Shown here: one piece after another, positions 3,482-55,603 of the stretch
How positions within the stretch are numbered: position 1 is the stretch's first letter
Layout: each line of letters starts with the position of its first letter
Origin: Geobacillus thermoleovorans
Lineage (GTDB): Bacteria > Bacillota > Bacilli > Bacillales > Anoxybacillaceae
Length of the DNA: 64,000 nucleotides
Reading direction: 5' to 3'
Assembly (NCBI RefSeq): GCF_001610955.1
Contig: NZ_CP014335.1
Coordinates: forward strand, 2,365,001 to 2,429,000
Translations under genes and position numbers: made by a program
Notes under the pieces: generated by a model
What the model was told of the DNA's origin: nothing
What the model saw: the letters and a program-made list of their open reading frames with translations, nothing else
Database searches by the model: none

Positions 3482-4606
3482 GTGGGTGAAATCATCCATC
3501 GTTCAAAGACTCGGCCGGTCCGCGTCGGTCCGCTGACAATCGGCGGCAGCAACGAAGTCATCATTCAAAGCATGACGACGACAAAAACGCACGATGTCGA
3601 AGCGACGGTGGCGCAAATCCACCGCCTCGAGGAAGCGGGGTGCCAAATCGTCCGCGTCGCCTGCCCGGACGAGCGGGCGGCTGAGGCCATACCGGAAATC
3701 AAAAAGCGAATCAACATCCCGCTTGTCGCCGACATCCACTTTGACTATAAATTGGCGCTGAAAGCGATCGAAGGCGGCGTCGATAAAATCCGCATCAATC
3801 CAGGCAACATCGGGCGCCGCGAAAAAGTCGAAGCGGTCGTGAAAGCGGCGAAAGAGCGCGGCGTACCGATTCGCATCGGCGTCAACGCCGGATCGCTGGA
3901 AAAACGCATTTTAGAAAAATATGGATATCCAACAGCCGACGGCATGGTTGAGAGCGCCTTATATCATATCCGCGTTTTAGAAGAACTTGATTTTCACGAT
4001 ATTATCGTTTCGTTAAAGGCGTCCGACGTACGCCTCGCCATTGAAGCGTACGAAAAAGCGGCGCGCACGTTCGACTACCCGCTCCATGTCGGCATCACCG
4101 AAGCGGGAACGCTTTTTTCCGGCACGATCAAAAGCGCGGTTGGACTCGGCGCCATTTTAAGCAAAGGCATCGGCAATACGATCCGCGTTTCGTTAAGCGC
4201 CGACCCGGTTGAAGAGGTAAAAGTGGCGCGCGAAATTTTAAAAACGTTCGGACTCGCTTCCAATGCGGCGACGCTCATTTCCTGCCCGACGTGCGGGCGG
4301 ATTGAGATCGATTTGATTCGCATCGCCAACGAAATCGAAGACTATATCGCCAAAATTCAAGCGCCGATCAAAGTCGCTGTGCTCGGATGCGCCGTCAATG
4401 GACCAGGGGAAGCACGGGAAGCCGACATCGGCATTGCCGGCGCCCGTGGCGAAGGCTTGTTGTTCCGCCACGGCAAAATCGTCCGAAAAGTACCCGAAGA
4501 GCAAATGGTGGAAGAGCTGAAAAAAGAAATCGACAAGCTGGCGGAAGAATACTTTGCAAAGCAAAAGGAAAACAAAGCCGCTCTGAAAGGCAGCGCCGCC
4601 CAATGA
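3482..4606 (+). CDS. ispG: 4-hydroxy-3-methylbut-2-enyl diphosphate synthase (IspG/GcpE)
   Basis: Penultimate enzyme of the MEP isoprenoid pathway; a 4Fe-4S protein that reduces MEcPP to HMBPP. From the GTG start the protein has 374 residues. A TIM-barrel N-terminal domain precedes the iron-sulfur domain, where Cys268 and Cys271 (S-C-P-T-C-G), Cys303 and Glu310 (G-C-A-V-N-G-P-G-E) are the expected cluster ligands. GTG at 3482 is preferred over the ATG at 3461 because AAAGGAG lies nine bases before it and the family starts at G-E-I-x-H-R. The next enzyme, IspH, is encoded 8 kb away in this window. Confidence 0.96.
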
Positions 4607-10036: not shown

Positions 10037-11347
10037 TTATGATTTTTTGAAGCGGCCAAGCCGCTTTTTCTTCTTCTCCAGCTCCGCGCGCAACTTTTTT
10101 TTGTAGCCCGGCTTCACCTGCTTCGTTTTTTTCAGTTTGGCGAAAAGCAGCGCCAGTTCGTCATCCTTTTCGCCCGCCCGCTTGCTCCGCCGGTTCCACG
10201 GCGGCAGCTCCTTCCATTCGCCGCGCACGAAATCACGGTGGACAAACGAAATTCCCATTTTTTCCAACCGAGCAATCGCATCTTGGTCAGACGGCTCGTA
10301 AATCGTCGCCGCAATGCCGCTATAGCCAGCGCGCGCCGTCCGTCCGGCCCGGTGAATATAAAACTGCAGATCATCAGGCAACTCGTAGTTGATGACATGA
10401 CTGACGCCTTCAATATCGATGCCGCGCGCCGCCAAATCGGTCGCGACGACATATTGAAACTCCAAATCGCGGATAAGATTCATCATCTTTCTCCGCTCGC
10501 GCGGCGTCAAATCGCCGTGCAGCACGCCGACTTTCAACCCTTGCTCAGCGAGACGGTCGGCGACCTCGTCAGCCATTTTCCTTGTGTTGACAAATACGAT
10601 GGCCAAATACGGGTTGTAGCTGAGGAGCACATCACGGAGCAGTTTTGTTTTCTCGCGTCCACGCAGCGGGATGAGCACATGTTCGATGTTTTCGTTCGCC
10701 GTCCGCTTCGGGTCGACGTGGACAAAGGTCGGGTTTTCCATATATTTTTTCAAAAACGGCTTCAGCTTTTCCGGAATCGTCGCTGAAAAGACGAGCATTT
10801 GCAAGTCTTTCGGCATCCGGGCGGCGATTTGGTCGACATCAGTGATAAAGCCCATATCGAGCATCAAGTCAGCTTCATCGACGACAAGGATGTGGGCCGT
10901 ATGCACATCAAGCGCCTGCTCGCGAATGAAATCGTTGATGCGCCCCGGCGTGCCGATGACAATATGCGGCTGCACGTTGAGCTTTTCGAGCGCTTTTTGC
11001 TTATCCGTCCCGCCGATCAAGCAACGGGCGACGATCATCCGATCTTTCGGGCAAAACTTCGTAATTTTCAGCGTTTCGTGATAAATTTGCGTCGCTAACT
11101 CGCGCGTCGGCGCCGTGATGACGGCTTGCACTTCGGCGCGTTCCGGCTTGATTTTTTCAATGATCGGCAATAAGTACGCATGTGTTTTTCCCGTTCCGGT
11201 TTGCGATTGGCCGACCATGCTTTCGCCGCGCAGCGCCCCCGGAATGATGCGCTCTTGAATTTCCGTCGGTTTATAAAAACGAAGCGTCTTGATCGCTTCG
11301 ATGATAAACGGCTGAAATGAAAAACGAGTGAACTGCGTTTCTGTCAT
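10037..11347 (-). CDS. cshB: DEAD-box RNA helicase CshB
   Basis: ATP-dependent RNA helicase (YqfR/CshB), 436 residues, implicated in cold adaptation and ribosome or mRNA metabolism. Start is ATG at 11347 with a GGGAG site; a 50-residue upstream extension lacks family similarity. Motifs in order: Q motif before P-T-E-I-Q, Walker A Q-T-G-T-G-K-T, P-T-R-E-L, D-E-A-D, S-A-T, then T-D-L-A-A-R-G-I-D and H-R-A-G-R-T-A-R in the second domain. The C-terminus is a Lys/Arg-rich tail, probably binding RNA. Next to nfo, as in B. subtilis. Confidence 0.95.
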   Translation of the reverse strand: MTETQFTRFSFQPFIIEAIKTLRFYKPTEIQERIIPGALRGESMVGQSQTGTGKTHAYLLPIIEKIKPERAEVQAVITAPTRELATQIYHETLKITKFCPKDRMIVARCLIGGTDKQKALEKLNVQPHIVIGTPGRINDFIREQALDVHTAHILVVDEADLMLDMGFITDVDQIAARMPKDLQMLVFSATIPEKLKPFLKKYMENPTFVHVDPKRTANENIEHVLIPLRGREKTKLLRDVLLSYNPYLAIVFVNTRKMADEVADRLAEQGLKVGVLHGDLTPRERRKMMNLIRDLEFQYVVATDLAARGIDIEGVSHVINYELPDDLQFYIHRAGRTARAGYSGIAATIYEPSDQDAIARLEKMGISFVHRDFVRGEWKELPPWNRRSKRAGEKDDELALLFAKLKKTKQVKPGYKKKLRAELEKKKKRLGRFKKS

Positions 11348-48307: not shown

Positions 48308-50557
48308 TTATGGTTTCATCCCCTGAAAGGTTCCACCGTTTTCGTCATACACATAGCAAATGGCCCCGTTTTCATCCGTCCGCCAAATGATCGCCCGTTG
48401 TTGCCGAAGCCGCATAAGCACCTCGGGGGACGGATGCCCGTAGCGATTGTAGCGGCCGACGGAAATGATGGCCGCTCGCGGCTTGACCGTCCGCAAAAAC
48501 GGCTCTGTTGTCGACGTTTTGCTGCCGTGGTGGGCGACTTTCAATACATCGGCGCGCAGCTCTGGATAAGCGCGGATGAGCGCCTGTTCCGCCTCTTCCT
48601 CGATATCCGCAGCAAACAGCCATGTCAAGCGGCCGAGGCGGGCGAGCAATACAAGCGAGCCGTTATTATCCTCATTGTTTCCCGCCTCCGGGTGCAATAC
48701 GGAAAACGCGGCATCCCCCACCTTCCACCGATCCCCCCGCACGCTGGCGGCCACCGGCACGGAAAACGGGCGCGCCATCGCCTTGACGGCCGGCAGCGCT
48801 CCTGGGCTTGTGACAATCTTCTTAACGCGCACGGCTGCCATCACCTCGGGAGCAGACCCGATATGGTCGGCATCATCGTGCGTCAAAATCAGCTGATCAA
48901 GCGTCCTCACCCCTTGGGCTTTTAAAAACGGCACGACAACGTCGCGGCCGACAGAAAACGGACGCGACCGCTTGCGCCACGGTTCGCGCGCCCATTCCGG
49001 CGTCCCGCCCGTGTCAATGAGATAGACTGCTTTGCGATGCGGAAGCTCAATATAAATGCAGTCTCCTTGTCCAACATCCAATATCGTTACTTCTCCCTTT
49101 GGATTCATATACGGAGAAGCCATATGCAGCGCCGTCGCCGCCGCCACCGCTGTCAATCCGCGGATCAGGCGGCCGCGTTCCCAATCCAAAAACGCCGCCG
49201 CGATGGCTGTCAGATAACCAGCTAAGCACCACGGCCCCGGACGGCCGAGCACAAGCATAAACGAGTAATCGACCGAGAAAAAATGGACAACCGCATCCGT
49301 CAGCTCAATGAGACGGCTAAACAGCCAAATGAGCGGAGAAAAGGGAAAAACTGCGGATAGAAAAGCGAGTGGCAAGATGACAAATGAATACCAAGGGACA
49401 AAGAAGACATTGAGTCCTACGCTCCAAACAGAAACTTCATAAAAATGGTAAAGCAAAACCGGCAGCGCGGCAAGCTGAGCGGCGAGCGCGGTCTGAAACA
49501 AGTTTTGGAGCATCGAACGAGCAGAGGCGAGCACCGATACATGGGCGAGAAGGGCAAACGTGACAAGAAACGATAGTTGAAAACCGACATCCCAAACCAT
49601 ATAGGGGTCAAAGACGAGCAGGGCAAGCGCTGTCCAACTCAACGCATCCAGCGGATGGATCCTTCCTTTTTTCCACTGGATGGCCAACACAATCATCCCG
49701 GTCGCACAAGCGCGCAGCACCGACGGCGAAGCGCCGGCGAGCACCGCATACATAGGCAAGAAAACGAGCAAAGCAAGCACGGCCGCTTCGCGCGTCACAA
49801 ACCGAATGGCAGCGGCCAACGCAGCACTGACAAGCAGGGTGACATGGCCGCCGGAAATGGCCAACAAATGGATGATCCCGAGCTGCTGGTAACCGCTAAT
49901 CACTTCCTCGTCCAACGAGCGGCGTTCGCCATAAATGAGCGCAGCGGCGATGCCGGCCGCTTCCGGCGGAAACCGGGCTTCAATGCGGCGGACGCCAGCC
50001 TCGCGAATGGCTTCAAGCCGTTCGATGATGGCGGGACGGACGCGCACGCAAGCAGAAAGATCGATCGCCTCAGGGAGAAAGAGCCAATGAATGCGGTGGC
50101 GGCGCAAATAACGGCGGTAATCAAACGCATACGGATTGCCAGCTGGCATGGGGCGCTCGAGCGTTCCCTTTAGCCGGCACACGACCCCAGGCATGAGGTG
50201 CGCACGCAGCGCTTCTTTTTCCGCAGCCGTCCGAATGATGTAACGGAGCTGCACCCGCTCCTTGCCAGCTTGCACCGCCGCCTGCAATCGATCGCCGTCG
50301 ATCGCCGGCGCGGCGGAAAAACGAACGGAAAGCGAATGACGGCCGCCGGAAAGGGAAGTTTTGTTATGATGGTCAACGATGAGAAAATAGACAAAAAAGA
50401 AGAGAGCTGCAACGAGAGCAGGAAGGAAACAGTGCGGCCGGCGGATGAAAAGAAGAAGGAGATACACAACGAGGAGAAGACAGGCGGTTTGGGACGGCGA
50501 GGCCGCCGCGACGGCCAAAAGCGCCGCCGCGGCGGGATAGACGGCTTGTCCTTTCAT
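48308..50557 (-). CDS. comEC: DNA-uptake channel protein ComEC
   Basis: Membrane channel for single-stranded DNA entry during transformation; 749 residues. Several N-terminal helices, a DUF4131 outer domain (about 40-180), the Competence membrane domain (about 200-470), and a C-terminal metallo-beta-lactamase-like nuclease domain with T-H-D-D-A-D-H near residue 565 that may degrade the non-entering strand. The ATG overlaps the comEB stop by four bases. All motifs appear intact, so the gene looks functional. Confidence 0.95.
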   Translation of the reverse strand: MKGQAVYPAAAALLAVAAASPSQTACLLLVVYLLLLFIRRPHCFLPALVAALFFFVYFLIVDHHNKTSLSGGRHSLSVRFSAAPAIDGDRLQAAVQAGKERVQLRYIIRTAAEKEALRAHLMPGVVCRLKGTLERPMPAGNPYAFDYRRYLRRHRIHWLFLPEAIDLSACVRVRPAIIERLEAIREAGVRRIEARFPPEAAGIAAALIYGERRSLDEEVISGYQQLGIIHLLAISGGHVTLLVSAALAAAIRFVTREAAVLALLVFLPMYAVLAGASPSVLRACATGMIVLAIQWKKGRIHPLDALSWTALALLVFDPYMVWDVGFQLSFLVTFALLAHVSVLASARSMLQNLFQTALAAQLAALPVLLYHFYEVSVWSVGLNVFFVPWYSFVILPLAFLSAVFPFSPLIWLFSRLIELTDAVVHFFSVDYSFMLVLGRPGPWCLAGYLTAIAAAFLDWERGRLIRGLTAVAAATALHMASPYMNPKGEVTILDVGQGDCIYIELPHRKAVYLIDTGGTPEWAREPWRKRSRPFSVGRDVVVPFLKAQGVRTLDQLILTHDDADHIGSAPEVMAAVRVKKIVTSPGALPAVKAMARPFSVPVAASVRGDRWKVGDAAFSVLHPEAGNNEDNNGSLVLLARLGRLTWLFAADIEEEAEQALIRAYPELRADVLKVAHHGSKTSTTEPFLRTVKPRAAIISVGRYNRYGHPSPEVLMRLRQQRAIIWRTDENGAICYVYDENGGTFQGMKP

Positions 50558-51024
50558 GCTTCACCTCCGCCGCTGGCAAGAAAGGCAAACACATCCGTTT
50601 TCAGCGGCACTTGCACAAGCCGGACGCCAGCTTGAGCAAACAGCTCCAAGGCGTACGGGTGGTTTTTGTAGTCTTGGGCGTAATAGACAGCGCGAATGCC
50701 GCTTTGAATGATCGCCTTGCAACAATGCAAGCACGGAAAATGGGTGACATACATCTCGGCCCCCTCGGTCGGGACGCCGAACTTGGCGCATTGCAAAATG
50801 GCATTCATTTCCGCATGGATCGTCCGTACACAATGGCCGTCAATAACGTAGCACCCTTCATCGGTGCAATGGGCGCCCCCGGCGATCGAGCCGTTGTACC
50901 CGCCGGCGATGATGCGCTTATCGCGCACAATCGTCGCCCCGACGGCGAGCCTTGTGCACGTGCTGCGCAGCGCCAACAGATGGCTTTGCGCCATAAAGTA
51001 TTGATCCCATGTGATGCGTTCCAT
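50554..51024 (-). CDS. comEB: ComEB, dCMP deaminase-like protein
   Basis: Zinc deaminase of the dCMP deaminase type, 156 residues, second gene of the comE operon. Catalytic motif H-A-E-M-N near residue 70 and P-C-L-H-C-C near 97. It is thought dispensable for DNA uptake itself; in B. subtilis it has been linked to localising other competence proteins. The start has GGAGGG. Overlaps comEC. Confidence 0.93.
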   Translation of the reverse strand: MERITWDQYFMAQSHLLALRSTCTRLAVGATIVRDKRIIAGGYNGSIAGGAHCTDEGCYVIDGHCVRTIHAEMNAILQCAKFGVPTEGAEMYVTHFPCLHCCKAIIQSGIRAVYYAQDYKNHPYALELFAQAGVRLVQVPLKTDVFAFLASGGGEA

Positions 51025-51153
51025 TCTACGTCCCTCCGCTCGTTTCCATACTTTTAGTCTACCCGCCGCCGCCTGCCCCCGTCAACGCCGAAAAACGTCC
51101 GCAGCAGCCCTGATCCGCCCATAAACGAGAAGCATTGCGCTCCCCCGCCTCGT

Positions 51154-51777
51154 TTACGGCACAAGCAAATACGGTTTCAATTTCTCCAGCGTTTTTTCGC
51201 CAATTCCGGTTACATTCAACAAATCTTCCACCCGCTGGAACGGCCCGTGTTCTTCGCGATAGGCGATGATCGCTTTTGCCTTCGCCGGTCCGATGCCGGG
51301 AAGCTGCATCAACTCCTCTTCCGTCGCCGTATTGACCGCCACTTGCGGCCCGTCCCGAGCTCCATCGCTTGGAGACTTGCCGACGGCATCTGACGCTGGT
51401 GCGGCCTCGCCTTTTTTCGGCACGTAAATCATCATCTCATCGCGCACTTTTGCCGCCAGATTGATTTTCGTTTCATCCGCCTCGTCCGTCAATCCGCCGG
51501 CTAGGGCGATAACATCGCGAACGCGGGCGTCCGCCGCCACTTCGTACACTCCTGGCTTCGCGACCGCCCCTTTCACATCCACCACAGCGGTTTTGGGCGC
51601 CTCGTCCTTTTTTTCTTCCGGCCGGGCGGCATCCGTTTCAGCCGCCGCCGGCAAGACGACTTGCCCCTTTTCATCCGTCGGATGACGAAACACCCATAAC
51701 CCCGCCGCCGCAGCAAACAACAAGAACATCCCTACTTTCCCATACCGTTTGCCAAGCTCCTGCACATGCTCCCACAT
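51154..51777 (-). CDS. comEA: DNA receptor ComEA
   Basis: Membrane-anchored DNA-binding receptor for transformation, 207 residues. One helix at about residues 16-30, an acidic linker, an SLBB-like domain (about 62-115), then a flexible stretch and a C-terminal double helix-hairpin-helix DNA-binding domain (L-P-G-I-G-P-A-K-A and V-T-G-I-G-E-K-T-L). First gene of comEA-comEB-comEC. No ComK box was recognised in the 100-base gap to comER. Confidence 0.95.
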
Positions 51778-51802
51778 ACGATCCCATCCTTTCCATCTCC
51801 AG

Positions 51803-51832
51803 TCATAAACCGAGCCTTTTTCTCATACATAT
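51803..51832 (+). promoter_or_regulatory. Sigma-E-type promoter of comER
   Basis: TCATAAA (51803-51809), 14-base spacer, CATACATAT (51824-51832): both elements fit sigma-E (-35 [GT][AC]ATA[TA][TA], -10 CATACAnT). The start site would be about 40 bases before the comER ATG. Confidence 0.65.
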
Positions 51833-51879
51833 CGAAAAAGAGAGTTCCGGCAAACCAAAACCGGGAGGGGGGACAATGC

Positions 51880-52698
51880 ATGAACATCGGCGTTATCGGC
51901 ACGGGGAATATGGGCACCATCTTAATCGAAGCGTTCCTCGACTCCGGCGCCGTGAAAGCGGATCAGCTCGTCATAACGAACCGTACGCTTGCGAAAGCGT
52001 TCGCGATACAACGCACATATCCCGGCATCACGGTGGCTGCCAACGCGGCTGAAGTCGTCAAACAATCCAGTCTCGTTTTTTTATGCGTCAAGCCACTCGA
52101 CATCCATCCATTATTGCAGCAACTGGCCCCGCACTGGACAAGGGAGCATTGCCTTGTGTCGATCACAAGCCCGATCAGCGTAAAACAGCTTGAAGCAGCC
52201 GTCCCTTGCCAAGTCGTGCGCGCCATTCCGAGCATTGCAAACCGGGCGCTCTCCGGCAGCATCCTTGTCACCTTCGGATCACGCTGTTCGACCGCCTGCC
52301 GGCAAACGATCGATGATCTTCTCCGGCGCATCGCCTCGCCGGTGTACATCGACGAGGCCATCACCCGCGTCGCCTCCGACATCTCAAGCTGCGGCCCGGC
52401 GTTTTTCAGCTATTTGCTTCAGCGCTTCATCGACGCCGCAGCGGCCAAAACCGCCATCACGAAGGAACAGGCGACGATGCTGGCGACCGATATGATCATC
52501 GGTCTTGGGGAACTGCTCAAGCGGAATCTGTACACATTGCCAACGTTGCAGGAAAAAGTATGCGTCAAAGGCGGCATTACCGGGGAAGGAATCGCTGTGT
52601 TGGAACAACGAATGAACGGCGTCTTTGAAGAAGTGCTGGCGAAAACACATGAGAAGTTTAAAGAAGATGTGGAGAAGGTGAAGCAACAATTTTCATAG
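51880..52698 (+). CDS. comER: ComER, pyrroline-5-carboxylate reductase-like protein
   Basis: 272-residue NAD(P)-binding protein of the ProC family. The Rossmann motif is I-G-V-I-G-T-G-N-M-G at the very N-terminus; the C-terminal P5CR dimerisation domain has G-G-I-T-G-E-G near residue 230. The ATG at 51880 has GGGAGGGGG; a long upstream frame is untranslated. Divergent from comEA. ComER is not needed for DNA uptake; reports in Bacillus connect it to sporulation and biofilm formation. The sigma-E-like promoter found here fits that. Proline synthesis is a possible but unproven activity. Confidence 0.92.
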   Translation: MNIGVIGTGNMGTILIEAFLDSGAVKADQLVITNRTLAKAFAIQRTYPGITVAANAAEVVKQSSLVFLCVKPLDIHPLLQQLAPHWTREHCLVSITSPISVKQLEAAVPCQVVRAIPSIANRALSGSILVTFGSRCSTACRQTIDDLLRRIASPVYIDEAITRVASDISSCGPAFFSYLLQRFIDAAAAKTAITKEQATMLATDMIIGLGELLKRNLYTLPTLQEKVCVKGGITGEGIAVLEQRMNGVFEEVLAKTHEKFKEDVEKVKQQFS

Positions 52699-52778
52699 GT
52701 TTCATTCGACGCAGAAAGGGAAATTCCTGCTTTGTTTTGCAAAAAAGATATCCCTTGAACCTTCAGCTAGGAGATAAT

Positions 52779-52889
52779 GTTGCAATCCTCACCCAGCCTT
52801 TTGGCTGGGTGCAATCGATTATTAGCCCGGCATTTGCGAGGAGATATTGATGTTTCAATCCTCACCCATCCCTTTTGGATGGGTGCAAT
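52779..52889 (-). CRISPR. Two-repeat CRISPR-like array without cas genes
   Basis: Repeat A 52852-52889 (38 bases) and repeat B 52779-52815 (37 bases) flank a 36-base spacer (52816-52851). On the minus strand both begin ATTGCACCCA, form a hairpin with an AAAAG-type loop, and continue GGGTGAGGATTG; A ends GATTGAAAC, the usual CRISPR repeat 3' end, B ends GATTGCAAC. The stems differ by paired changes (CCCATCC/GGATGGG versus CCCAGCC/GGCTGGG). Repeat B, at the trailer end, is the degenerate one. AT-rich DNA lies on the leader side. Only two units and no cas genes in the window, so a structured non-CRISPR repeat remains possible. Confidence 0.5.
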
Positions 52890-53262
52890 ACAAAATGCCG
52901 ATGATATGTGCGGCAAGATAGAGGAAATATTCCTGAAATATATTCGGATTATGTAAATCATTGGGATGGCGTTGAGCCAATAAGAACCGTGCTGTTTCCA
53001 TTGCTGTTCGATACGATCCTCTTTGGGCTTGGCATGTCTTCTATTTCAAAATTCCCGTGGCGTATGAGCATAAACATCATTCATTTTCAATTCGACCCCC
53101 ATCAGACATTTTCTCTTAGGACATTTGCCTTATATTTATTTATTTCGACCAATATCTTCATAATCCTTCTAACTCACACATCTTTTTCAATTTCCCAGCC
53201 GTCAATCGCGTCGATCGCAACGTTTGGCCATACATTCCCCCCCTTCTTTTCCACATGCGCAT

Positions 53263-53290
53263 AAAAAAAGAGCCCCTCCGGCTCTTTTTT
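53263..53290. terminator. Bidirectional terminator after yqeM
   Basis: AAAAAAAGAGCC pairs with GGCTCTTTTTT around a five-base loop; U-tracts form on both strands. It ends the yqeG-to-yqeM operon from the right and any plus-strand transcript from the left. Confidence 0.92.
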
Positions 53291-53372
53291 CTTTCCCCAC
53301 TTTCAGTGATGTTCCATCAACCTCTTGCAACAGCATCTTTTTTGGCTGCTAAGGTCCCTCACCACACGCCCC

Positions 53373-54116
53373 TCACCGCTTTCGCGCGATGAAAAACAAC
53401 CGTTCCGCCGTCTCGGTCGGGGGCGCATTGGTGAAATCGGCGGTCACTTCGAGCACCTCAAAGCCAGCGGAATCGAGCCATCGCTCATAGACAGCGCGCT
53501 CGAACGTGCGCTGTTCATGCCATTCGTCATAGCGCTCATAAAGATCGCCGCGGCGGACGAAAAAGGTTAATTCATGCCCGACGCTGTGCGGCCAGTCAAG
53601 CGGATGGCACGTCCATATGTAGCTGAGGTCGTCATCCTGGTCCGCAAACACGGCGTCGCGGAACAGGACGTCCATTTTGTAGACCGAATGGACATCAAAC
53701 AAAAGCAGCCCGCCGCCGCCAAGGGCGCGGGAGACGGCGGCGAACGTCCGCTTCACATCCTCTTCATCCGTTAAATAGTTGAGAGCATCGCAAAACAGGA
53801 AGGCGCCATCGAGATCAGAAAACCCGTCGAGCTCCGCCATGTTTTGTTCGAAAAACGGCACCTCCACTCCCGCCGCTTCGGCTTTCGCCTGGGCGACGGC
53901 GAGCATATGTTCAGAGAGATCAACGCCGGATACTTGCCATCCGGCCTTGGCGAGGCGGATGGCAAGCTCTCCCGTCCCGCAGCCGATGTCAATGACCCGT
54001 CTCCCCGGCCGTTTGGTGTATTGGGCGAATGCCCGTTCCACAAACGATTGCCATGCATCATACGGCGCCTCGGCCATGAGCGCATCGTACCAATCGGCGA
54101 AACGAGCATAGGTCAT
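53373..54116 (-). CDS. yqeM: SAM-dependent methyltransferase YqeM
   Basis: Class I methyltransferase of unknown substrate, 247 residues from the ATG at 54116, which overlaps the rsfS stop by four bases; longer frames read rsfS in another phase. SAM motif V-I-D-I-G-C-G-T-G-E near residue 40 and the acidic strand V-D-L-S near 63; F-D-V-H-S near 140. Last gene of the ribosome-assembly operon, so an rRNA, tRNA or protein substrate is possible but not shown. Confidence 0.88.
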   Translation of the reverse strand: MTYARFADWYDALMAEAPYDAWQSFVERAFAQYTKRPGRRVIDIGCGTGELAIRLAKAGWQVSGVDLSEHMLAVAQAKAEAAGVEVPFFEQNMAELDGFSDLDGAFLFCDALNYLTDEEDVKRTFAAVSRALGGGGLLLFDVHSVYKMDVLFRDAVFADQDDDLSYIWTCHPLDWPHSVGHELTFFVRRGDLYERYDEWHEQRTFERAVYERWLDSAGFEVLEVTADFTNAPPTETAERLFFIARKR

Positions 54117-54469
54117 GGCTGCAGCACAGCCGCGACGTCTTCCGTCGGGGCGTCCCCCCAAAGCCGTTCGAGGTTGTAATACTCGCGCTCCTCTTTGGCA
54201 AAAACATGCACAACGATGTCGCCCAAATCGACAAGCACCCATTTCGCCTCCTGGAATCCTTCAACCCTCTTCACCGCTAAGCCGTGTTCTTCCGCTTGGT
54301 CTTGAATTTCGCGGGCGATGGCCTGCACTTGTTTGTCCGAATTGCCATGGCAAATGACAAAATAATCGGCGACAAGCGAAATGCCTTTCATGTTCAAGAC
54401 GACAATGTTTTCCGCCTTTTTATCATCCGCCGCGCGGACGACAAGCTGCAACGCCTCTTGTTCCGTCAC
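54113..54469 (-). CDS. rsfS: Ribosomal silencing factor RsfS
   Basis: Binds L14 of the 50S subunit and blocks subunit joining under starvation; 118 residues (YqeL/RsfS). Family motif G-x-S-x-x-A-D-Y-F-V-I-C near residue 30 and W-V-L-V-D-L-G-D-I-V-V-H-V-F near 77. Start GTG at 54469 overlaps the yqeK stop by four bases, so yqeK, rsfS and yqeM are translationally linked. Confidence 0.95.
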   Translation of the reverse strand: MTEQEALQLVVRAADDKKAENIVVLNMKGISLVADYFVICHGNSDKQVQAIAREIQDQAEEHGLAVKRVEGFQEAKWVLVDLGDIVVHVFAKEEREYYNLERLWGDAPTEDVAAVLQP

Positions 54470-55044
54470 CGTTTTGCTTCCCCCTTCACTTCACGCATGA
54501 GTGAATTGTACGCATGAATCGTATCTGGATAAATGAGCTGGCGCTTCTCAAGCAAAAACGCGATCGTATTTTTCACCGCCTGCAACAGCGCCCGGTTGAG
54601 GTCTTCTTCCGCCAAGCGCCGTACGTCGTCAACGCCCGGGAAGCGGCGCCCTGGTTCCATATAGTCGGCCAAATAAATAATTTTTTCAAGCACCGTCATT
54701 CCAGCCCTTCCCGACGTATGGTAGCGAATGGCATTCAGCACCTCTGGATCGTTGATGCCGACTTCTGTCTGCACCAAATAGGCGCCAACGGGCGCATGCC
54801 ATAGCTCACTGTTGTAAGTAAGCAAATCGTTGGGCATATTTTGCGCCAAAATGATTTGTTTCATTTCCTCGACCGGACGGAATTTGGCATAGTCGTGGAA
54901 AATCGCCGCCAGTTCCGCCTTTTTCGCGTCGGCGCCGTATTGCCTGGCGAGCTTAACAGCGGTCTCGACAACGCCAAGCGTATGCTCGTAGCGCTGCTCT
55001 GTCAGCTGTTGTTTCACGATCAGTAACGCCTGTTCTCGCTCCAT
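54466..55044 (-). CDS. yqeK: HD-domain hydrolase YqeK
   Basis: HD-domain metal phosphohydrolase, 192 residues from the ATG at 55044 (GAGGAGAAGGGG upstream). Metal ligands in Y-E-H-T near residue 20, F-H-D-Y near 50 and Y-H-T near 108, D near 127. Homologues hydrolyse diadenosine tetraphosphate symmetrically, which I take as the likely activity. Its start region lies inside the 3' end of nadD (92-base overlap), unusual for this gene pair. Followed by rsfS. Confidence 0.9.
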
Positions 55045-55603
55045 ATAGCCCCTTCTCCTCAATATAAAGTCTAACGCCTTCCGGCACAAGATAGCGAATC
55101 GTCTGCCCGTTCCGCACCCGCTCGCGGATGAGCGAGGAAGAAACGGCAAACTGCGGCGCCTCAACTTCGATGACCGGATACGGCGTTTCCATGGAAAACC
55201 CCGGCCGCTTGACGCCAACAAACGTCACCAACTCGATGAGCTCATCGATGCGGTGCCAATGGGGCAAATATTCGACCATATCGGCGCCGATGATGAAATA
55301 AAACTCGTCATTGGGATGCATCGCGACAAGCTGCCGGATCGTATCGTACGTATACGAAGGCCCTTCCCGCTCGAGTTCGATCGTCTCAATATGAAAGCGC
55401 GGATGGCCAGCCACTGCCAACTCGAGCATGCGCAGCCGGTCTTCGCTTTTGGTCACTTGTTCGTGCTGCTTATGGGGAGGAAGGCGGTTGGGCAGAAACC
55501 AAATTTCTGACAACTGAAGGGCGTCAAGCACTTCATTCGCCATGAGCAAATGACCGTAATGAGGCGGATCAAACGTGCCGCCGAAAATCCCGATTTTTCC
55601 CAT
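54953..55603 (-). CDS. nadD: Nicotinate-nucleotide adenylyltransferase NadD
   Basis: Adenylates nicotinate mononucleotide to deamido-NAD in NAD synthesis; 216 residues. Nucleotidyl-transferase motif [11 protein letters not shown] at residues 8-18 and the S-S-S-L-I-R signature near 155. The family domain ends at about residue 188 (Y-I-E-E-K-G-L-Y). The last 28 or so residues are Arg/Ala/Thr-rich, have no family match and are translated from the 5' end of yqeK in another frame, so the usual stop codon appears to have been lost. The ATG has a GGAAAG site. Confidence 0.94.

Follow-up and report, generated by a model that had tools for sequence, protein, structure and literature searches.

Features of the locus

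The analysed window is a stretch of 64,000 nucleotides of the Geobacillus thermoleovorans genome (G000:C1:2365001-2429000). Between comER and a methyltransferase-like gene it holds, from left to right after comER, a trailer flank, repeat A, spacer 1, repeat B, spacer 2 (33-34 nt) and cas3 debris (Table 1). The right-hand neighbour was matched by many methyltransferase models, those listed all scoring under their cut-offs. Two repeats of 37 and 38 bases around a 36-base spacer had been described in the original prediction, and this arrangement was borne out at 52779-52889.

Table 1. Features at the comER site (positions in the window)
Feature	Position	Strand	Remarks
comER, left neighbour, trailer side	51880..52698	+	NCBIfam NF005814, late competence protein ComER, 463 bits (cut-off 278); same neighbour in relatives
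Repeat A (trailer-end)	52779-52815	minus	37 nt
Spacer 1	52816-52851	minus	36 nt; matches the cas1 3' end in relatives
Repeat B	52852-52889	minus	38 nt
Spacer 2	52890-52922	minus	33 nt inferred; far end cut by deletion joint; matches DNA just after cas2
cas3 fragment, about codons 569-611 of the G011 gene	52923..53051	minus	with stop or frameshift; 90-91% to G011, G010, G008 and G003
First cas3 codons and DNA upstream	53052..53171	minus	94% to G011 L050:10384-10500
Methyltransferase-like gene, right neighbour	53376..54116	minus	same neighbour in relatives

Repeats A and B, read on the minus strand, each form a 9-pair stem with folding energies of -19.0 and -16.8 kcal/mol (z of -4.46 and -4.69, respectively), and this resembles the fold of an intact repeat from a relative. 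The paired stem change noticed earlier between the repeats was real, the pair being G-C in repeat A and T-A in repeat B, and the loop of repeat B is one base longer. Repeat A differs at two positions from the repeat of the relatives G011 and G010, and its left flank is like the trailer flank of G011. Because the form GTTTCAATCCTCACCCAGCCTTTTGGCTGGGTGCAAC is present in relatives' arrays at the same site, the repeat is not regarded as a chance repeat. It belongs, stem included, to the I-C repeat family, the cas type at the site having been assigned by NCBIfam. The spacer lengths, 36 nt and an inferred 33 nt, are usual: spacers in the arrays of four relatives (173 spacers) measure 33-42 nt, and those in the array of G025, from another genus, 33-36 nt. 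Rfam gave nothing at gathering scores in the window. The exact repeat pattern gave 13 single matches in GTDB contigs of various organisms, which were taken as chance.

Repeat, spacing, direction and synteny with the type I-C loci of relatives agree, and they support the earlier reading of the element as an orphan, degenerate CRISPR array. The AT-rich right flank was previously taken for a leader; this did not hold, as 52923-53051 is the cas3 fragment of Table 1. No leader was found beside the first repeat, and cas3 debris comes after spacer 2. Since the leader is absent, consistent with deletion, the element is claimed as a remnant and not as a working array. The statement that the window lacks cas genes proved correct for whole genes but not for fragments, as cas3 fragments adjoin the array.

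The match to cas3 starts at 52923 or 52925, depending on the relative. Two joints were seen in the scar, one at about 52923 leading into cas3 and one at about 53052 leading to the cas3 start and the DNA upstream of it (the cas3 start lies at 10414 in the G011 locus L050). From this sequence comparison, two or more deletions would be needed to produce the scar, unless a single complex event did so. Judged by the gene order of G011, the leader, cas2, cas1, cas4, cas7, cas8c, cas5c and most of cas3 would have been lost. G000 was searched for Cas1 and for the Cas3 core, and neither search gave a cas gene. There was no Cas1, and the Cas3-core model gave nothing over its cut-off; five weak matches, one of them in the window at about 10325-10891, were taken as ordinary helicases. 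A promoter and terminator scan of 52600-53400 gave none, and the lack of a sigma-70-like promoter there leaves transcription possible.

The comER site in relatives

A type I-C locus lies between comER and the methyltransferase-like gene in four of the 14 genomes of the genus (G011, G010, G008 and G003). In these the gap holds arrays of the same repeat family together with cas DNA, the contig of G003 starting within the array. The G011 locus has 10 repeats and, by NCBIfam, Cas2, Cas1c, Cas4, Cas7/Csd2, Cas8c, Cas5c and Cas3 (core and HD); cas typing of G010, G008 and G003 refers to Cas1c only. Among 41 genomes of the family the Cas1c model scored over its cut-off in five, namely these four and G025. 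Some Cas1 was found in 10/14 genomes of the genus, so that several of them have other CRISPR types elsewhere. The array of G010 (L051) is broken by about 1.3 kb of other DNA and that of G008 (L052) by 0.4 kb. Spacers common across species were also seen (L050, L052, L055), one shared by G011 and G008 and one by G008 and G003.

Remnants of several kinds were observed at the comER site of the other genomes. G002 and G006 have one repeat, as does G001, near a contig end, and no repeat was seen in G009. Two degenerate repeats with a spacer are present in G004, G012 and G013. In G005 and G007 (L069, L068) a single degraded repeat runs into about 100 nt from the 5' part of cas3, and from these scars a deletion from the array into cas3 seems to have occurred in more than one lineage.

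Spacers of the array match the cas locus of relatives

Spacer 1, read in the crRNA sense, matched the 3' end of cas1 without gaps and over its full length in all five relatives with the locus. Identities were 31 of 36 in G011, 30 in G010, 31 in G008, 31 in G003 and 32 in G025. The trinucleotide just 5' of the protospacer is TTC in 2/5 (G010 and G025) and CTC in 3/5 (G011, G008 and G003). G025 was added once the matches in the other four were on record, and it agreed for spacer 1 (32/36, TTC). TTC is listed as a type I-C PAM, with Geobacillus as the genus, in PMC8482600, and the PAM used here rests on that listing.

The full-length match also bears on the concern, raised in the original prediction, that the pattern is a 70-base tandem duplication unrelated to CRISPR. 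About a dozen bases ahead of repeat B do resemble those ahead of repeat A. This resemblance ends there, whereas cas1 matches spacer 1 along all 36 positions, and the same repeat family occurs in arrays at the site. The duplication was therefore rejected, its probability being practically negligible.

The spacer 2 region, 33-34 nt after repeat B, matched the DNA just after cas2, on the side towards the array, in three of the five loci (G011, G008 and G003), with 29/29 identical bases and one indel further on. No match was found in the loci of G010 or G025. At a length of 33 nt, the shortest in the relatives' arrays, spacer 2 ends where the cas3 match starts and has TTC beside its protospacer; both length and PAM depend on the position of the joint, and TTC is obtained only if the spacer is 33 nt. 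Both protospacers fall in the deleted part of the locus.

At E <= 0.01, the spacers here match the cognate cas locus in 2/2 cases. None of the 173 spacers (168 distinct) of four relatives matched the loci outside the arrays at E <= 0.01. Likewise, 0/18 spacers of G025 matched any of the five loci, and neither did the 173, which gives a total control of 0/191 spacers from the arrays of five relatives at E <= 0.01. With 4000 shuffled spacers the maximum was 31 bits, compared to 49.1 and 53.6 for the real ones. Random 36-mers drawn from window positions 1-51000 reached at least 45 bits in 12/2000 cases; the presumed reason is that genes at the right edge of this range are also present in the loci. 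The element is very probably what remains of the trailer end of a chromosomal type I-C locus, with cas-derived spacers. It is ordinary in kind as a CRISPR remnant and unusual in content, its sole spacers pointing at its own lost genes.

A foreign source of the spacers was also sought. The 261-base region gave no phage match at E <= 1. Plasmid matches at E <= 1 came from four records, of which those in Thermus and Deinococcus were repeat-like. The other two, from Shewanella, covered 35 nt including part of spacer 2 (E 0.8) and were taken as chance. No exact 22- or 21-base core of either spacer was found in IMG/VR. Within three mismatches, among 299 genomes of the order, spacer 1 occurred only in G000 and spacer 2 (29 bases) only in G000 and G008; this is a weak negative, as the sample held 5/14 genomes of the genus and the three-mismatch limit missed the cas1 of G008 itself for spacer 1.

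Another fossil at the comER site

In three other species, G013 (L061), G012 (L065) and G004 (L067), two repeats with a spacer lie beside comER, and this second fossil is more decayed than the one described above. The two fossils are called separate because their spacers, repeats and joints differ. Compared to cas2 as single sequences, the spacers of the second fossil scored 19 (G013), 13 (G012) and 18 (G004); the G012 spacer has a deletion and scored best at another place. Shuffled versions of the G013 spacer reached 18, and the best control spacers 18.5 and 17.5. The apparent likeness of the single sequences to cas2 is weak, but it improves when the three are combined.

The G013 spacer could be aligned from repeat to repeat, without gaps, with G010, G003 and G008. 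A majority sequence was made by hand from G013, G012 and G004, with one tied column settled towards cas2. It scored 23 against G010 (29/35), 21 against G003, 19 against G008 and 15 against G011, and in G025 the score was 27 (31/35). None of 400 shuffles of the majority sequence reached 23, the maximum being 17.5. Its mismatches were transitions in 5/6, 7/7, 8/8 and 10/10 cases for G010, G003, G008 and G011, respectively. When the tied column was settled the other way, the scores were 25, 21, 19, 17 and 14, with a maximum of 18 for 400 shuffles and of 18.5 for the 191 control spacers. TTC lies beside the cas2 place of this spacer in 5/5 loci. For the piece that follows the second repeat in this fossil, no match was obtained (11-12.5). 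Three of four fossil spacers (3/3 without the unmatched piece) would then be cas-derived, compared to 0/191 in the relatives' arrays. Hypergeometric figures of 3e-6 and 8e-7 are descriptive only, as spacers of one locus are not independent.

Proposed history of the scar and alternatives

The preferred explanation for the scar is that a type I-C system acquired spacers out of its own cas operon, the resulting autoimmunity then selecting cells with the operon deleted. This account as a whole is considered somewhat probable, a little better than even. Spacer 1 would have been taken from the cell's own cas1 while Cas1-Cas2 worked. Spacer addition needs Cas1-Cas2, so a cas1 gene was once in the cell. 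Spacer 2, the younger of the two because it is nearer the lost leader, would then have come from a protospacer on that same strand, about 370 nt away from the spacer 1 protospacer on its PAM side, as in primed adaptation. The crRNAs would have led Cascade-Cas3 to the cell's own cas operon. Survivors would have been cells without the operon, in which target and effector were removed at once and targeting ended for good. Same-strand spacers are described for primed adaptation of type I-E, while I-B and I-F use both strands (PMC10011333), and Cas3 of the type I-C system of P. aeruginosa is reported to delete on both sides (PMC11640852).

The causal step, from autoimmunity to loss, is one that we infer, and several observations stand against the account as a whole. 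The ancestor's own cas1 is gone, so a self origin is beyond a letter-by-letter check. Spacer 1 adjoins the trailer repeat, the place of the oldest spacers, and a self-directed spacer of that age would be expected to kill the cell, except after a collapse of the array or under weak interference. Furthermore, the scar needs at least two deletions, CTC is found beside the spacer 1 protospacer in 3/5 loci, and spacer 2 is unmatched in G010 and G025, its length and PAM depending on the joint. In the second fossil, the single-sequence scores are hardly above those of the best control spacers, and one piece is unmatched.

The main and serious rival is acquisition after interference had died. If an effector gene was lost first, an active Cas1-Cas2 could have taken nearby DNA without penalty while the locus later eroded, and the self spacers would be a by-product of the decay and not its cause. 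This course of events is considered unlikely on balance, at about one half the confidence given to autoimmunity. A review names this route (PMC6990116), self spacers accumulating once only Cas1 and Cas2 are left, and cas3 is the gene left in pieces here as well as in G005 and G007. The same-strand, PAM-side order of the spacers speaks against it, since it looks primed and priming needs Cascade and Cas3, though this is a single case. Alternatively, the array could have conferred immunity against a foreign I-C locus, its spacers coming from cas genes of a mobile element or of DNA taken up from another strain, with the cell's own locus lost later or for that reason. Every relative shows mismatches, so a foreign source is conceivable, and comEC, comEA and comER nearby are genes for DNA uptake, which is no proof of uptake. 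This alternative appears quite improbable: the region is without a phage match, IMG/VR held no exact spacer core, the plasmid matches were repeat-like or at chance level, and spacers of this origin would be self-directed in any case, the cell's own locus having belonged to the same family.

A regulatory role was likewise considered, in which a CreR-like mini-array tunes down its own cas operon. CreR and CreA are crRNA-like RNAs, CreR acting on the cas promoter (PMC12737573), and two degenerate repeats with complementarity to the own locus do resemble this arrangement. Here, in contrast, the DNA following cas2 and the cas1 3' end are matched, which lie at the opposite end of the operon from the promoter before cas3, and there is no operon left. 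The spacer 1 match is full-length and lies beside CTC or TTC, and no similar mini-array is kept beside the listed arrays of the relatives. Regulation of this kind is thus very improbable.

Returning to autoimmunity, spacers from the adaptation end of the operon (cas1, cas2 and the stretch after cas2) may mark a recurrent route of type I self-deletion, in which one deletion cures the autoimmunity and the scars keep the guilty spacers. This generalization is tentative and falls slightly short of an even chance.

Comparison to known systems

Orphan arrays with anti-cas spacers are a known kind, with a precedent in E. coli type I-F, found here in type I-C. Spacers of the orphan I-F CRISPR4 arrays of E. 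coli mostly match I-F cas genes of relatives, as related in two reviews (PMC8616872, PMC5972030) describing the work of Almendros et al. 2016. The reviews suggest anti-cas spacers as a cause of cas loss, and activity of the arrays against incoming I-F cas genes is reported as well. Both cases have a short array after cas loss with spacers matching the cognate cas genes of relatives. They differ in that the present array is of type I-C, its targets are cas1 and the stretch after cas2, its leader is lost, and the site has yielded a second such fossil. Whether the array still blocks incoming cas genes is doubtful here, because there is no leader and no sigma-70-like promoter was found. In Lactobacillus acidophilus NCFM, the cas genes are deleted and six genome-targeting spacers are left (PMC6990116). 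There, too, cas loss is read as escape from self-targeting with the array kept; the spacers of that strain target the genome, whereas the target here is the cas locus itself. Anti-cas spacers for type I-C were not stated in the titles or abstract openings found in a literature search.

The reason for frequent CRISPR loss is an open question, and the scar names a suspect, its remaining spacers being directed at the cas locus that has disappeared. As another fossil of similar appearance is present at the site, the idea can be tested by counting cas-directed spacers in scars and in living arrays. Geobacillus belongs to another phylum than E. coli. If true, the anti-cas case of E. coli I-F would be extended to type I-C and to a distant host.

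Similar repeats elsewhere

Elsewhere in the same genome, 21 nt at G000:C1:993085-993105 match the right half of repeat B (E 0.03). BLAST of window positions 50500-55500 against the DNA around G000:C1:993085 gave no match at E <= 0.01. On a plasmid of Thermus brockianus (L019), positions 4001-4109 hold weakly similar repeat DNA (71%, E 0.2), which adjoins annotated type I-C cas2 and cas1c. Similar repeat DNA occurs at eight places on a plasmid of Deinococcus proteolyticus (L020, 4001-4237). The best of these is without an annotated cas gene within 4 kb and is perhaps another orphan array.
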